From: Phycisphaerae bacterium
GTDB lineage: Bacteria; Planctomycetota; Phycisphaerae; Phycisphaerales; UBA1924
Assembly: GCA_030426395.1 (NCBI GenBank)
Contig: JAUHYE010000031.1
Coordinates: 1 to 32,276, forward strand
Direction of reading: 5' to 3'
DNA: 32,276 nucleotides
Under the pieces are notes generated by a model. The model saw nothing but the letters and a program-made list of their open reading frames with translations. It had not been told where the DNA came from and made no database searches. The first letter of the stretch is position 1. Each line of letters starts with the position of its first letter. The position numbers and the translations under genes are program-made. Shown here in pieces: positions 2,841-9,517 of this stretch.

Positions 2841-3518
2841 ATGGCCCGAAGCGAACGCAAGCCCGCGAAGCACCGCATCGTGACGGTTCGCATGGTGGTG
2901 GTGAGCCTTGTCGTTGGCGTGGTGCTGGCGGTGGGCAGCGTGCCGGTGGCGGCGTTCGTGTCGCAGAGGGTGCTGCGGGCCTGGAAGTCGCCGGCGTCCC
3001 AGAAGCAGTACTGGCTGGACAAGGGCGACCACCAGATCTACATCTTCCACCGCGATACGCCTTGCTATGCGCATTGGGAATCGAGCATCGTGCCCGACGG
3101 CATGTATGACTCGCCAGGGCCCGACTTTCAGCGCCCGAGGCGCGACCCGCGCCCGCCATATGCGCGCCGGGCGTACACCGGGCACGTGCAATCGATCGTC
3201 TCGAGCTCGGCGGGATGGCCATGCTTGGCCGCCAGCGGTCGGGCCCTGATGGATGGCACGCCGGCGCGATTCTGGGACGAATGGTTTCCATCGGTCACGC
3301 TCGGCCCGCTGGCATGGCGCGTGCCTGTGCGCCCCATCTGGCCCGGCCTCATCGGCAACACCGCGTTCTACACCGCCATCACGCTCGGCCTGCTCGTGGG
3401 CGTCCGCGTGCTTCGCACGCGTCGCCGCCGCGCCCGCGGCCGATGCGTGGCGTGCAACTACGAGTTCGGTGAGGGCGTGAGCGCGTGCCCCGAGTGCGGG
3501 CTTGCGGCGACGGCCTAG
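2841..3518 (+). CDS. Membrane protein with C-terminal zinc ribbon
   Basis: 225 residues starting at MARSERKPAKHR. A basic N-terminus leads into one transmembrane helix (residues ~16-36, V-V-V-S-L-V-V-G-V-V-L-A-V-G). An extracytoplasmic segment rich in Trp, Tyr and Pro follows, then a second helix (~170-190) and an Arg-rich stretch. It ends in a short zinc ribbon, C-V-A-C...C-P-E-C-G. Two-helix proteins with such a cytoplasmic C-terminal ribbon are common and uncharacterised in planctomycetes. The ATG at 2841 is chosen because it begins the basic/transmembrane N-terminus; upstream codons fall in the GC hairpin cluster. The TAG stop overlaps the stop of the convergent acetyltransferase gene (CTAG, 3515-3518). 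The function is unknown. Confidence 0.72.
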   Translation: MARSERKPAKHRIVTVRMVVVSLVVGVVLAVGSVPVAAFVSQRVLRAWKSPASQKQYWLDKGDHQIYIFHRDTPCYAHWESSIVPDGMYDSPGPDFQRPRRDPRPPYARRAYTGHVQSIVSSSAGWPCLAASGRALMDGTPARFWDEWFPSVTLGPLAWRVPVRPIWPGLIGNTAFYTAITLGLLVGVRVLRTRRRRARGRCVACNYEFGEGVSACPECGLAATA

Positions 3519-4075
3519 ACCCCATTCTCGTACATCGGGTCGCTCTCGAACACGCCCGCGCTCTCGCCGGTGGGCTGGGGCGGCGCGTCGACGACCATCT
3601 TGCGGTGGCCGATGCCGGCCTCGGTGAAGGGCTCGCCCTCGGGACGCCAGCCGAGCGCTTCGTAAAAACCAACGGCGGGGTCCTGCGAGTGGCAGTAGAG
3701 GCGGTCGAGACCGAGCTCGCCGAAGGCCCTCGCCTCGGCGGCGACGACAAGGCGACGGCCGAGCCCCTCGCCCTGGCGTTGCGGGTCGACGGCCATCTGC
3801 ATCACTTTGGCCCCCTCCGGGGGGGGGTGTTGGGCCCCGGCGCCATCGGGGCCACGCGGCTCATCGACGAGCAGCAGCAGGCAGCCGACGACCCTGGTCC
3901 CGGTCGGGTGGTCCATCACGGCCACGAAGTGCTCGGCCCGCTCGTCGACTTTTGGGTACTCGGCGGTGAATTTCGCGTGGTCGTAGCCGATGGGGTTGAG
4001 CAGGACGCTCTCCCGAAGCGCGACGGCGCTGGGGTACAGCGGGCTCTCTGGCGTGATGCGCTGGATCGTGATCAC
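3515..4075 (-). CDS. GNAT family N-acetyltransferase
   Basis: A 186-residue acetyl-CoA-dependent acetyltransferase. The central segment V-M-Q-M-A-V-D-P-Q-R-Q-G-E-G-L-G-R-R-L carries the GNAT motif A pattern (Q/R-x-x-G-x-G/A) that binds the CoA pyrophosphate. It is followed by a helix (A-E-A-R-A-F-G-E-L-G) and the motif B-like D-P-A-V-G-F-Y-E-A-L-G-W. The substrate cannot be read from sequence. The start is a GTG at 4075 (V-I-T-I-Q-R-I); upstream codons belong to the divergent promoter space before 4160. A loop rich in Pro and Gly (D-E-P-R-G-P-D-G-A-G) sits between the beta strands before motif A and looks like a lineage-specific insert. The stop interlocks with the gene at 2841-3518. Confidence 0.85.
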   Translation of the reverse strand: MITIQRITPESPLYPSAVALRESVLLNPIGYDHAKFTAEYPKVDERAEHFVAVMDHPTGTRVVGCLLLLVDEPRGPDGAGAQHPPPEGAKVMQMAVDPQRQGEGLGRRLVVAAEARAFGELGLDRLYCHSQDPAVGFYEALGWRPEGEPFTEAGIGHRKMVVDAPPQPTGESAGVFESDPMYENGV

Positions 4076-4159
4076 GGGGGCAGGATAGGCAAGGTTTGGG
4101 AGCCGTTGTGATGCAACGATCGGCCGCCGGGAGCGTACAACGCCTTGAAAGGGGGCCAC

Positions 4160-4567
4160 ATGCCCGCGATGCTGACGATCCGTGACGAGGGGCTTGGGGC
4201 CAAGGAGCAGGACGGGAGCTACGAGCTGACCGTGCCCGGCGAGCGGCTGACCATCCGCGAGCTGATCCGCGAGCGCGTGTACCAGGAGGTCGACGACTTC
4301 AACCGCAAGGTCCGCGAGGGCAACGACGCGCGGTTCAAGGGCCTCGTCCGGCCGGCGCACGTCGAGGCCGTGCTGAACGCGACGAAGTCCGACCGCCGCG
4401 AGGTCGACTGGAAGGCCCAGTTCGAGCTGGCGATCACGGCCTTCGAGGACCGCGGCGTGCTGGTGCTGGTGGGCGAGAAGCAGGCGACGGACCTGGACGA
4501 GGCGTTCGAGGTGACGCCGGGGCTGGAGGTGACGTTCTTGAGGCTGGTGCCGTTGGTGGGTGGGTGA
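4160..4567 (+). CDS. Small beta-grasp-like protein ending in Gly-Gly, coupled to DUF4132 gene
   Basis: 135 residues. Seen: an opening beta hairpin (LTIRDE at 5-10, then Y-E-L-T-V), a helix (TIRELIRERVYQEV, 31-44), an inserted middle segment, a second helix (W-K-A-Q-F-E-L-A-I-T-A-F, 84-95), a strand V-L-V-L-V, and a last strand G-L-E-V-T-F-L-R-L-V followed by P-L-V-G-G at the extreme C-terminus. Hairpin-helix-strand order and a final 'G-x-E-V-x-F...G-G' resemble MoaD/ThiS and ubiquitin-like beta-grasp proteins, whose terminal glycine is adenylated or conjugated. That analogy is inference. The ATG at 4160 has a clear SD (AAAGGGGG, 4148-4155). The stop overlaps the next start (GTGA at 4564), so the two products are probably made together. 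No E1-like or protease gene is adjacent. Confidence 0.75.
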   Translation: MPAMLTIRDEGLGAKEQDGSYELTVPGERLTIRELIRERVYQEVDDFNRKVREGNDARFKGLVRPAHVEAVLNATKSDRREVDWKAQFELAITAFEDRGVLVLVGEKQATDLDEAFEVTPGLEVTFLRLVPLVGG

Positions 4568-7122
4568 GAGTGGTCCCAAGCGAAGAGGCACAGGCCGTCA
4601 TCCCGCGGCTCCACGAGACGGCACTCCAGTACGAGTCACAGCCGTTTCGCGGGCCGATGGCGGCGTTCAACGCAATTGAAGCGGACGCGAAAGCGCTTTC
4701 CAGGCCGAACCAGGCGTGGCTCGTTCGTAGGGCATTCGATGAGTCGGTAGAGTTGTGGTCACGATTGGGAGGCCAGCCTGCTCGGTGCACAGAAGACCAT
4801 ATCGTCGACACCACCGCGTGGCGATTCCTCTTTCTGGCCGGCGCCCTGCTGAAGCGACAGTTACCGCTGACGTTCGAGGAACTTCTGGAGCTCACCGAAC
4901 GTTCGCTCCACATGACGGAGCGGTACACGATCTACCTTCCGCACATGCCGGGGCTGATCCGCCAGATCGAGAAGGGGTACGCCAAGCGGGCGCGCGAGCC
5001 CAGAGCCCGTGAGATCCTCACGAGACTGGCCGATCGCATCGATGAGCAGGGCTGCGAGCGGCACTTCGCCAGGCGTCTGCGCAAACTGATGCCCGACTTC
5101 TTGGAAATGCCGCTGAACAAGGGTGAGGCGTGGGGCGATGCGGCTGCCGATGCGTTGCTTGCCCTGCCAGACGAGCAAAGGCGCATCTGGATCGAGCTGA
5201 TCCACCACTGTGGAAAGGCGAGCAGCGGCTCGCCGAGCAAGAAGTGGCTCGCCGACGCCACACATCTGCGCGAGCGGATCGGGCGCGATTACGTCACCTG
5301 TTGCATGCTGGAGTGGTTCCCACTCGTCGACAAGCCGCGCACGATCCCACTCGGCCACAACCAGGTCTTCCAGGATCACAACCACCACCTCATCCTCGAC
5401 CACCACGCCACCATCCTGAAGGGCCTCTGCTGGCTGGCCGCGACCGAAGAATCCGACGAGATGGCCCGCACGCTCGGGGCGCTCGCGATCTCGTGCTATC
5501 GCAAGGTGCCGGGCATCGGGGCTCGGGCGGTGAAGGTTGGCAATGCGGCGGTGTACGCGCTCGGCGCGATGCCCGGCACGGCATCGCTGGGGCAGCTCTC
5601 GCGGCTGCGCATCAAGGTCAAGTTCGGCACGGCCCAGGCGATGATCGCCAAGGCGCTCGACCGGGCGGCCGAGCGCGAGGGGTTGCCGCGGGCGGAGATC
5701 GAGGAGATGGCCGTGCCCGCGTACGGGCTCGAGCAGGTCGGCTTCCTGCGCGAGCAACTCGGCGACTGTGCGGCGGAGGTCCGCGTGGGCGAAACGCTCG
5801 CGGCCGCGTTGCATTGGTTCAACGACAAGGGCAAGCCCGTCAAGGCCATGCCCGCGGCGGTGAAGCGGGACAACGCCGAGGAGGTCAAGGATCTGAAGGG
5901 TGCGCTCAAGGACATCCAGGCGATGCTGCCGGCCCAGCGGGACCGCGTCGATGGATTGTTCCTCGAGCGTAAGCGGTGGCCGCTTGAGGTGTGGCGCGAG
6001 CGGTACCTCGACCATCCGCTGGTGGGGGCCGTGGCGCGGCGGTTGATCTGGGTCTTCGAGCATGGAAACACCGCGACCGCCGCGGCGTGGCTTCGCGACG
6101 ACGCCGAAGCGCCGCCCCACGCCGAGGGACAACTGGTGCGTGTCGATGGCACCGCGTTCGAGCCCAAGGCCGGGAGCACGGTCACGCTGTGGCACCCCAT
6201 CAACGATGGTGACAAGGCCGGCGACGAGGCTTTGCGCGACGACGTGGCCGCGTGGCGCGCCTTCTACGAGGACCACCGCATCCGCCAGCCCTTCAAGCAG
6301 GCCCACCGCGAGGTGTACCTGCTGACCGACGCCGAGAGGAACACGGGAACGTACTCCAACCGCTTCGCCGCCCACATCGTACGGCAGCACCAGTTCAACG
6401 CCCTGATGCGAGAGCGGTACTGGAAGACGCAGACGCGGCTGATGGTCGACGCCGAGTACGGCCCCGCATACCGGCAGTTTTCCGCGTGGGACCTGCGCGT
6501 GGAGTTCTGGATCACTGGCGTAGGTGACGACTACAACGACGATTTCGTCCTGGACTCGGGCGCGTTCCGCTACCTCGCGACGGACCAGGTACGCTTCTAC
6601 CGGTCCGCGCAGCGCATCCAGGACGACAACGCGATCCCGCTCGACCAGATCCCGCACATCGTGCTCAGCGAGTGCCTGCGCGACGCCGACCTGTTCGTGG
6701 GCGTCGCGAGCGTGGGCAACAACCCCGAGTGGGCCGACGGCGGGCCGGAAGGCCGATTCCAGACCTACTGGCACGACTTCAGCTTCGGCACGCTCGGCGA
6801 GAGCGCCCAGACGCGCCGCGACATCCTGTCTCGCCTCATTCCGAGGCTGGCCATCGCCGACGTGTGCACGATCAGCGACCGCTTCCTGGTCGTTCGCGGC
6901 ACGAAGCGGACGTACAAGATCCACCTCGGGAGCGGCAACATTCTGATGGAGCCCAACGACCAGTACCTGTGCATCGTGCAGGGACGCTCGGAGAACGACC
7001 GCAGCGTGTTCCTGCCCTTCGAGGGCGACCGCACGCTGGCGATCATCCTGAGCAAAGCGTTCATGTTGGCCGAGGATAACACGATAAAGGACCGCACCAT
7101 CCTGAGCCAGATCGAGCGTTAG
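4564..7122 (+). CDS. DUF4132 (MolR-like) domain protein
   Basis: A large, mostly helical soluble protein of 852 residues without signal peptide. The family is recognised from the conserved core at ~280-390 (H-A-T-I-L-K-G-L-C-W-L, then K-V-P-G-I-G-A-R-A-V-K-V-G-N-A, A-L-G-A-M-P, R-L-R-I-K-V-K-F). DUF4132 proper lies at ~470-660 (R-Y-L-D-H-P-L-V-G-A-V-A-R-R-L-I-W, L-W-H-P-I, F-K-Q-A-H-R-E-V-Y, Y-S-N-R-F-A-A-H). A C-terminal module (~745-852) contains V-R-G-T-K-R-T-Y-K-I-H-L-G-S-G-N-I and A-I-I-L-S-K-A-F-M-L-A. E. coli MolR/YehI belongs to the same broad family, but its activity is not established; no WGR domain is seen here. The GTG start at 4564 overlaps the upstream stop. Its stop interlocks with the convergent prepilin-like gene (TTAG, 7119-7122). 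Confidence 0.8.
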   Translation: MRVVPSEEAQAVIPRLHETALQYESQPFRGPMAAFNAIEADAKALSRPNQAWLVRRAFDESVELWSRLGGQPARCTEDHIVDTTAWRFLFLAGALLKRQLPLTFEELLELTERSLHMTERYTIYLPHMPGLIRQIEKGYAKRAREPRAREILTRLADRIDEQGCERHFARRLRKLMPDFLEMPLNKGEAWGDAAADALLALPDEQRRIWIELIHHCGKASSGSPSKKWLADATHLRERIGRDYVTCCMLEWFPLVDKPRTIPLGHNQVFQDHNHHLILDHHATILKGLCWLAATEESDEMARTLGALAISCYRKVPGIGARAVKVGNAAVYALGAMPGTASLGQLSRLRIKVKFGTAQAMIAKALDRAAEREGLPRAEIEEMAVPAYGLEQVGFLREQLGDCAAEVRVGETLAAALHWFNDKGKPVKAMPAAVKRDNAEEVKDLKGALKDIQAMLPAQRDRVDGLFLERKRWPLEVWRERYLDHPLVGAVARRLIWVFEHGNTATAAAWLRDDAEAPPHAEGQLVRVDGTAFEPKAGSTVTLWHPINDGDKAGDEALRDDVAAWRAFYEDHRIRQPFKQAHREVYLLTDAERNTGTYSNRFAAHIVRQHQFNALMRERYWKTQTRLMVDAEYGPAYRQFSAWDLRVEFWITGVGDDYNDDFVLDSGAFRYLATDQVRFYRSAQRIQDDNAIPLDQIPHIVLSECLRDADLFVGVASVGNNPEWADGGPEGRFQTYWHDFSFGTLGESAQTRRDILSRLIPRLAIADVCTISDRFLVVRGTKRTYKIHLGSGNILMEPNDQYLCIVQGRSENDRSVFLPFEGDRTLAIILSKAFMLAEDNTIKDRTILSQIER

Positions 7123-8560: not shown

Positions 8561-9517
8561 TCAGCGCGGCGCGGGATGCTCGGCCGTGCGACCTTCCAGA
8601 ACCGCCACCACATCGCGCACCACCCAGCTCATGTTCAGCCGCGCCGGCGCGGTGGCGGCCGCGATGTGCGGGGCCAGGTGGGCGTTGGGCAGGCCGAGAA
8701 GCGGGTAGCCCGGGTCGAGGGGCTCGTGGGGGTCGTGCACGTCGAGCAGGGCTCGTGCCCTGGGGTTGGCCTTGAGCCAATCGGCGAGCGCTTGCGGGTC
8801 GATCGCCAGGCCGCGGCTCGTGTTGACGATGATGCAGTCGTCGCGCAGCGTGCCCAGGAAGCCGGCGTTGATTAGGTGGTGGTTGCCGGCGTTCCAGTCG
8901 ACATGGATGGTCAGCACCTGCGAGGTCTTCTTGAGTTCTTCGAGCGAGACCGATTCGCAGCCGTGGCGCTGGTCTTCGGGCACATGCTTGATGTCGTGGA
9001 AGCGGACGGTGCAGCCCAGCGCGGTCAGAACCTTGCCCACGCGGCTGCCGATGCGGCCGAAGCCCAGGACACCGACGGCCAGGTCGCTCAGGTGACAATC
9101 GCCCTGGAGTTCGTTGCGCGCGTCGTGCCAGGCCTGGCCATCGAGCGGGCCGTCGAGGAACACGCGCGGGCGGAGCGCGTCGAGCAGCAGGCACAGCACG
9201 AACTCGACCACCGCCTGGGTGTTGGCGGCCGGTGTGTGGACGACCTCGACGTCGCGGGATCGGCAGGCGGGAATGTCGATGTTCTCGAGCGCCACGCCCG
9301 CTCGCCCCACGACCTTGAGGTTCGGGGCCTTATCAAGCATGTCCTGGTTCACGCGGGTGTAGGTGCGAACCACCAGGGCATCGGCTTGTGACAGCAAGTC
9401 GAGGAACTCGGGGTCTTCATGGGAGCACACCCGAAGGTCGACGCGATCGCGCAACCACGCCTGGGCGGTGGGGTCGAGGGTCTCGGTCTGGATGACCAGC
9501 GGCCGATTCTGGCTCAC
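8561..9517 (-). CDS. D-isomer-specific 2-hydroxyacid dehydrogenase (3-phosphoglycerate dehydrogenase-like)
   Basis: 318 residues, NAD-dependent oxidoreductase of the SerA/GyaR type without an ACT domain. The N-terminal substrate half contains N-L-K-V-V-G-R-A-G-V-A-L-E-N-I-D-I, a form of the family signature. The Rossmann motif is V-G-V-L-G-F-G-R-I-G. The catalytic residues are visible: Arg in N-T-S-R-G, Glu in D-P-H-E-P and His in A-P-H-I-A-A. Its substrate cannot be fixed; phosphoglycerate, glyoxylate or hydroxypyruvate are candidates. At 318 residues it is the compact form of the family. The start is a GTG at 9517 (V-S-Q-N-R-P) with AGGA a few bases upstream. It stands alone, between a convergent gene and the HU gene it diverges from. 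Confidence 0.87.
   Translation of the reverse strand: MSQNRPLVIQTETLDPTAQAWLRDRVDLRVCSHEDPEFLDLLSQADALVVRTYTRVNQDMLDKAPNLKVVGRAGVALENIDIPACRSRDVEVVHTPAANTQAVVEFVLCLLLDALRPRVFLDGPLDGQAWHDARNELQGDCHLSDLAVGVLGFGRIGSRVGKVLTALGCTVRFHDIKHVPEDQRHGCESVSLEELKKTSQVLTIHVDWNAGNHHLINAGFLGTLRDDCIIVNTSRGLAIDPQALADWLKANPRARALLDVHDPHEPLDPGYPLLGLPNAHLAPHIAAATAPARLNMSWVVRDVVAVLEGRTAEHPAPR

Follow-up and report, generated by a model that had tools for sequence, protein, structure and literature searches.

Several described systems come close to the locus analysed in this study. MoaD, ThiS and URM1 (PF02597), together with MoeB/ThiF/Uba4, resemble it in small size, in the beta-grasp fold and in a free C-terminal Gly-Gly, the tail having the form F-x-x-P-x-x-G-G. 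The small protein reported here is longer, however, has a helical insert and does not match the ThiS family in sequence, and its module has an obligate DUF4132-DUF7737 partner and no linked E1 or cofactor genes. Bil/Bub systems and the E1-E2-JAB clusters (Genome Biol 2006 7:R60) likewise combine a small Gly-Gly beta-grasp protein with a cysteine protein possibly taking the modifier, whereas the module has no conserved adjacent E1-like, E2-like or JAB gene. In Deinococcus radiodurans, DR_A0165 / SEP068184 and DRA0166 represent the same pair as a distant member, with a DUF5724-DUF4132-DUF7737 partner that carries the cysteine; passages of two papers on them (PMC9650054, PMC8533742) do not mention the Gly-Gly end, the pairing across phyla or the cysteine. 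MolR / YehI of Escherichia coli has DUF4132 in common with the partner, but lacks both DUF7737 and the small gene. No such pairing is described in the passages on DUF4132 of PMC8533742 and of another paper.

The window, i.e. the whole stretch of 32,276 nucleotides that was analysed, comes from a Phycisphaerae bacterium and includes a gene for a small Gly-Gly-ended protein followed by a gene for a DUF4132 protein. Many bacteria have an undescribed module of these two genes, one for a Gly-Gly ubiquitin-like protein and the other for a large partner with one cysteine that is retained or lost together with the Gly-Gly end; this suggests an unreported chemistry of covalent protein tagging or sulfur transfer. 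The module offers a testable chemistry for domains of unknown function that are found across many bacterial phyla.

Results

Organization of the locus

Features of the locus are listed in Table 1. The small gene extends from an ATG at 4160 to a TGA at 4565-4567, and its product has the tail FLRLVPLVGG followed directly by the stop (C-terminal end of the 135 residues, VTFLRLVPLVGG). Since the 852-residue frame starts with a GTG at 4564, the two genes overlap by 4 nt (GTGA). This arrangement, a Gly-Gly-ended small gene whose stop overlaps the GTG of a DUF4132 frame, had been read from the DNA by the first-pass annotation, and both the sequence and Pfam agree with it. The accompanying claim, that the two proteins are translated in a fixed ratio, finds no support as a general rule: spacing varies among loci, the GTGA overlap is not general, and the order is reversed in six loci (Planctomycetales and relatives), where the DUF4132 gene precedes the small one. 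Therefore, tight coupling is a local feature, while pairing is the general one. The genome (an assembly of 186 contigs) has one copy of each gene. Ordinary neighbours in the window are a DEAD-box helicase (301-1869, + strand), a GNAT acetyltransferase (3515-4072, - strand) and a 2-hydroxyacid dehydrogenase (8561-9517, - strand).

Table 1. Positions of the features of the two-gene locus, numbered from the first letter of the window.
Feature	Position	Strand	Basis
A/G-rich ribosome-binding-like stretch AAAGGGGG, just 5' of the small-gene ATG	4148..4155	+	Sequence
Small beta-grasp (ubiquitin/MoaD-like) protein, 135 aa	4160..4567	+	ORF, 30-member alignment, AlphaFold model, fold search
Codons for the terminal Gly-Gly	4559..4564	+	Kept in all core members, third bases vary freely
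GTGA overlap of DUF4132-gene start and small-gene stop	4564..4567	+	Sequence
Partner, 852 aa: helical repeat N-terminal part, DUF4132, DUF7737	4564..7122	+	ORF, Pfam, AlphaFold model of the L009 read-through fusion
HEAT-like helical repeat region, approximate extent mapped from L009	4651..5763	+	Structural matches; weak, common arrangement
DUF4132 domain, aa 423-620	5830..6423	+	Pfam, E 8e-50
DUF7737 domain, aa 748-850	6805..7113	+	Pfam, E 1.5e-42
His787 of motif YKIHLGSxNI, kept in partners of Gly-Gly and non-Gly-Gly proteins	6922..6924	+	Column statistics
Cys803 of motif YLCIV, covarying with the Gly-Gly tail of the small protein	6970..6972	+	Covariation tests
Lys831, candidate contact to the small protein	7054..7056	+	Column statistics

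Fold of the small protein

The AlphaFold model of the small protein (pLDDT 74.8) shows a hairpin, a helix, a short helical insert and strands in this order, with the strand-strand-helix-strand-strand order of a beta-grasp. The best match in VIA was human MOCS2A, a homologue of MoaD, with Z 9.3 and an rmsd of 2.9 for 80 aligned residues; the alignment runs to residue 133, within two residues of the end. Ubiquitins and ISG15 came next with Z of about 7.6. A published prediction for the Deinococcus relative DRA0165 names the same MOCS2A structure (PMC9650054). Because the Foldseek E-values of the model are weak (best 0.025), the verdict on the fold relies on the order of the elements, on the scores in VIA and on this published prediction, with which the model agrees. 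A beta-grasp-like fold had also been proposed from the hairpin-helix-strand pattern in the first-pass annotation, and the model and the MOCS2A score are in accord with it.

By sequence, the small protein has no family above cut-off in Pfam, NCBIfam or PADLOC. Up to an E-value of 1, none of the 30 aligned members matches the ThiS/MoaD or ubiquitin families of Pfam, the hhalign probability for two ThiS sequences is 0.45%, and sequence searches of the PDB returned no convincing relative. A weak match to DUF4194 in 5 of the 30 members (E 0.015 to 0.025) was taken as chance. The single ThiS-family match in the genome of the window is a true ThiS by sequence.

Distribution of the family and its Gly-Gly tail

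A single protein query returned 29 homologues in named genomes, mostly from Planctomycetota. Single records are named Gemmatimonas, Chthonomonas (Armatimonadota), Omnitrophota and Chloroflexota, although a few of the bins could be wrongly assigned. Additional members come from Nonomuraea, Chloroflexota, Deinococcus, Bacteroides and Novosphingobium, so that the homologues span at least seven phyla. Searches of viral contigs gave no copy of the small gene and searches of phages no relative of the DUF4132 protein, and a phage-borne origin is therefore unsupported. In PADLOC-DB the pair of the window matches no known anti-phage defence system, and the Deinococcus and Bacteroides pairs give one weak HEAT-repeat match and nothing else.

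All 30 aligned small proteins end in Gly-Gly directly before the stop, and both the helix segment IRERVYQEV and these last two glycines are invariant in the alignment. When fragments were included, 66 of the 75 collected ORFs ended in Gly-Gly; the core set (a score of 139 bits or more, n = 52) did so without exception (52/52), exactly at the stop. At both glycine codons all four third bases occur in the wider set, so that selection acts on the amino acids rather than on the DNA. Invariance of the terminal Gly-Gly, which the first-pass annotation had proposed to check, thus holds for the whole core and breaks down in distant members, some of which have other tails. A few small proteins have one or two residues beyond the Gly-Gly (GGA, GGSA, GGCR), and their partners keep the cysteine described below.

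Tails such as PSIGG, PLKGG, PLQGG and PLIGG (L121, L257-L266) indicate that what seems to be fixed is the final Gly-Gly and the leucine-rich pattern before it. The first of them belongs to a reduced small protein of about 75 residues without the helical insert (L121, 8397-8620, - strand, genome G645), whose gene still precedes a DUF4132 gene with the cysteine.

Pairing with the DUF4132-DUF7737 gene

The pair is real and widespread. Across 30 small-gene loci, the DUF4132 gene is the only widely conserved neighbour; beyond it and frames that overlap, any other neighbour recurs in a few loci at most. A DUF4132-DUF7737 gene adjoins the small gene wherever the contig reaches far enough. In the opposite direction, the small gene adjoins all 23 testable DUF7737 loci from 343 Planctomycetota genomes (in one of them in the reduced 75-residue form), while it lies beside none of the 16 Planctomycetota DUF4132 loci without DUF7737, a few of which are on short contigs. 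The survey of DUF4132 neighbourhoods that had been suggested beforehand reveals a lasting pairing of the small protein with a DUF4132 protein. In a tree of the DUF4132 region all partners of small genes lie on one side of a branch; this side also includes four rows without a detected small gene, one of which has the reduced form and another of which is cut by a contig end.

No E1-like, E2-like or JAB gene is conserved beside the pair in the 30 loci, in line with the earlier remark that an E1-like gene is not adjacent in the window. Genes for cofactor synthesis, thiolation, cysteine desulfurase or rhodanese are likewise not conserved near the pair in the sampled loci. In one locus (L244, 4358-7913, reverse strand, genome G807) the beta-grasp protein and the DUF4132-DUF7737 protein are naturally fused in a single frame.

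Architecture of the partner protein

Structural information on the partner comes from the AlphaFold model of a read-through fusion (L009), in which the small protein, its stop read as Trp, continues into the partner. HEAT/alpha-solenoid structures matched residues 173-507 of this model; the N-terminal part of the partner thus looks like a HEAT-type helical repeat, a weak assignment to a common arrangement. Foldseek and VIA searches with the whole fused model returned only HEAT-like repeats and the beta-grasp part, with no match to the DUF4132-DUF7737 part. In the model, where the tether is artificial, the tail is disordered (residues 129-153, pLDDT <50), and no docking of it was observed.

The cysteine lies in the DUF7737 motif YKIHLGSxNIxMxPxDxYLCIV. 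DUF7737 is modelled as a helix, strands, a loop and two helices, with the cysteine directly after the last strand, an order that is reminiscent of E2 enzymes and may serve only as a lead. Kinship with E2 enzymes was not significant by hhalign (three E2 sequences, probability 0.4%), there is no E2 family among the Pfam matches of DUF7737, and the domain has no match in the PDB by sequence. Lys831 is kept in the partners of Gly-Gly and of non-Gly-Gly proteins, and is lost where the small gene is absent.

Covariation of Cys803 with the Gly-Gly tail

Every partner of a Gly-Gly protein has Cys803 (69/69), also where one or two residues follow the Gly-Gly. The cysteine is absent from all seven partners of proteins with other tails (AGA four times, SG, SGRLW and one degenerate tail), and from all twelve DUF7737 proteins without a small gene (11 from Armatimonadota, one from Acetobacter). 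The Armatimonadota proteins (L273-L283) form a DUF7737 subfamily without the small gene, in which Pro, Asp, Ala, Val or Gln replaces the cysteine and Lys831 is lost. Among 430 columns, Cys803 separates the partners best (p 4.6e-10, next column 7.8e-5, p-values that ignore relatedness), and the other columns conserved in Gly-Gly partners are still 57-100% conserved in non-Gly-Gly partners. With relatedness taken into account, independent pairs on the tree agree 6:0 (p 0.031), or 8:0 (p 0.0078) when absent genes are counted as non-Gly-Gly. L067 and L068 provide the closest contrast: their small proteins are 63% identical and end in AGG and AGA, while their partners are 73% identical and have VCII and LFIV at the cysteine site.

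The pattern was noticed in an initial set and retested after 51 more regions from Chloroflexota and Armatimonadota had been fetched. In the new loci alone, all 24 intact Gly-Gly proteins have a partner with the cysteine, which is missing for both AGA proteins and in the 11 Armatimonadota loci without the gene. In L239 an internal TAG interrupts the Gly-Gly gene, and its C-terminal piece was used for the score; L133, L241, L245, L263, L267, L270 and L272 were left out because of a contig end or an unclear assignment. Two kinds of exception were found. The fusion L244 keeps the cysteine, and its beta-grasp part passes into DUF4132 through the tail IGDKLMN, which has GD instead of GG. In addition, three loci have the cysteine without a small gene of their own, in genomes that hold another Gly-Gly copy.

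Homologues without Gly-Gly, named in advance as a refuting case, do exist among the distant members. Their partners have lost Cys803 as well, which adds weight to the view that in the other members the Gly-Gly end is chemically active. As far as the searched literature shows, this covariation is new, and what was a guess about the tail can now be put to a specific test at the bench.

Two loci show variant arrangements. One of three copies in genome G578 (L075, 7794-8195, - strand) has the degenerate tail PICLWIKLTD and a partner with LPM for LCI, which looks like joint decay of both members of the pair. In genome G1037 (L268), two tandem DUF7737 genes, both without the cysteine, accompany one small gene that ends in AGA.

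Discussion

Proposed mechanism and alternatives

The module is defined here by the fold of the small protein, the conservation of its tail, the obligate pairing and the Gly-Gly/Cys covariation. A residue that is kept only while the Gly-Gly of the other protein is kept is best explained by chemistry between both, and most likely the Gly-Gly carboxyl reacts with Cys803. One proposal, to which we give just under an even chance, is a two-component ubiquitin-like module in which Cys803 takes the activated glycine. The small protein, its Gly-Gly free at the C-terminus, would act as a beta-grasp modifier or carrier; the partner would bind it, and Cys803 of DUF7737 would serve as nucleophile or acceptor for the activated glycine carboxyl, giving a thioester-like intermediate. 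The modifier would then be passed to a target or released, so that the partner would have an E2-like or a combined E1/E2-like role. We infer the covalent bond, its direction (transfer and not removal), the source of activation and the targets. The natural fusion of the two proteins, the reduced small protein that retains IGG along with the cysteine of its partner, and the Deinococcus stress data given below also speak for this proposal; the missing sequence kinship of DUF7737 with E2 enzymes, the exceptions to the covariation and the DRA0165 pull-downs speak against it. Activation by ATP would be the task either of the partner or of an unlinked ThiF/MoeB-type enzyme. The genome of the window encodes a ThiF homologue, and one was found in 23 of 23 genomes carrying the module or a relative; ThiF is nearly universal, however, and the co-occurrence is therefore uninformative. 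Should the glycine-cysteine bond prove real, the module would be a further bacterial ubiquitin-like route without linked E1, E2 or JAB genes. A stricter form, in which the DUF4132-DUF7737 protein is a self-contained enzyme that activates its own Gly-Gly protein, holds it as a thioester on Cys803 and tags stress targets, with only two genes and without E2 sequence kinship, is rather doubtful.

The same covariation trace would also be expected from a peptidase or a sulfur relay, although a thioester-like step is favoured. Cys803 might be a peptidase-like nucleophile that strips the small protein off targets or trims it, with the Gly-Gly as recognition site and an unlinked conjugating enzyme. The conserved His787 near the cysteine and the tails GGA, GGSA and GGCR with cysteine-bearing partners, as expected if trimming is needed, fit such a role. 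However, trimming would be superfluous for most members, which have nothing after the Gly-Gly, His787 stays where the cysteine is lost, and a linked conjugating enzyme was not found in the 30 loci; we consider a peptidase unlikely. The sulfur relay, which we consider improbable, would use the small protein as a MoaD/ThiS-like carrier whose glycine becomes a thiocarboxylate; in a sulfuration reaction linked to stress, Cys803 would donate or accept the sulfur as a persulfide. MOCS2A as the nearest solved fold, the MoaD- and ThiS-like tail and a genomic ThiF homologue that could activate the small protein are consistent with a carrier, whereas no sulfur- or cofactor-related gene is conserved near the pair in the sampled loci, and the small protein matches neither the ThiS/MoaD Pfam family nor, by hhalign, a ThiS profile.

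The pair could finally be non-covalent: the small protein would regulate the DUF4132 protein as a subunit, and its tail would only insert into a pocket lined by Cys803. Some partners function with an AGA, SG or SGRLW tail and retain every other conserved residue; this, the natural fusion L244, and the many proteins bound by tagged DRA0165 at either tag position are in line with such a pair. A pocket, however, leaves unexplained why at each loss of Gly-Gly the cysteine and almost nothing else is lost, and a purely regulatory pair seems quite improbable.

The Deinococcus pair and a link to stress

DRA0165, with the tail LTALAGG, is a distant member of the family that adjoins DRA0166. According to PMC8533742, DdrO targets the drA0165-drA0166 operon, which has a motif at -83, and mitomycin C raises the DRA0166 protein in an IrrE-dependent manner; PMC9650054, at odds with this, states that no DdrO motif is present. 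The latter paper reports that resistance to H2O2 goes up on loss of DRA0165 and down on its overexpression, calls the protein a negative regulator of oxidative resistance, and describes its binding to the thioredoxin Trx1. These reports describe the module as induced by DNA damage and oxidative stress, and the stress role suggested in the first-pass annotation gains a link through this orthologue. Pull-downs with N- and C-terminal tags shared 157 proteins (PMC9650054), and since both tag positions gave these proteins alike, the contacts need no free Gly-Gly end. The statement in PMC9650054 that DRA0165 is confined to Deinococcus fails, because relatives were found in other phyla. The chemistry can also be tested for a stress-induced operon of D. 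radiodurans whose small protein was thought to be restricted to the genus.

Other DUF4132 proteins

A molybdate role, as the name MolR would imply, finds no support for the module, since MolR-type proteins have neither DUF7737 nor the small gene and the one ThiS-family match in the genome of the window is a true ThiS. On plasmids of E. coli (L085) and Iodobacter (L084), YehI-type DUF4132 genes stand in a block with genes for a MoxR ATPase, DUF5682, VWA and SWIM. These genes are found beside YehI but are not conserved beside the module, and the YehI block is a different DUF4132 system.
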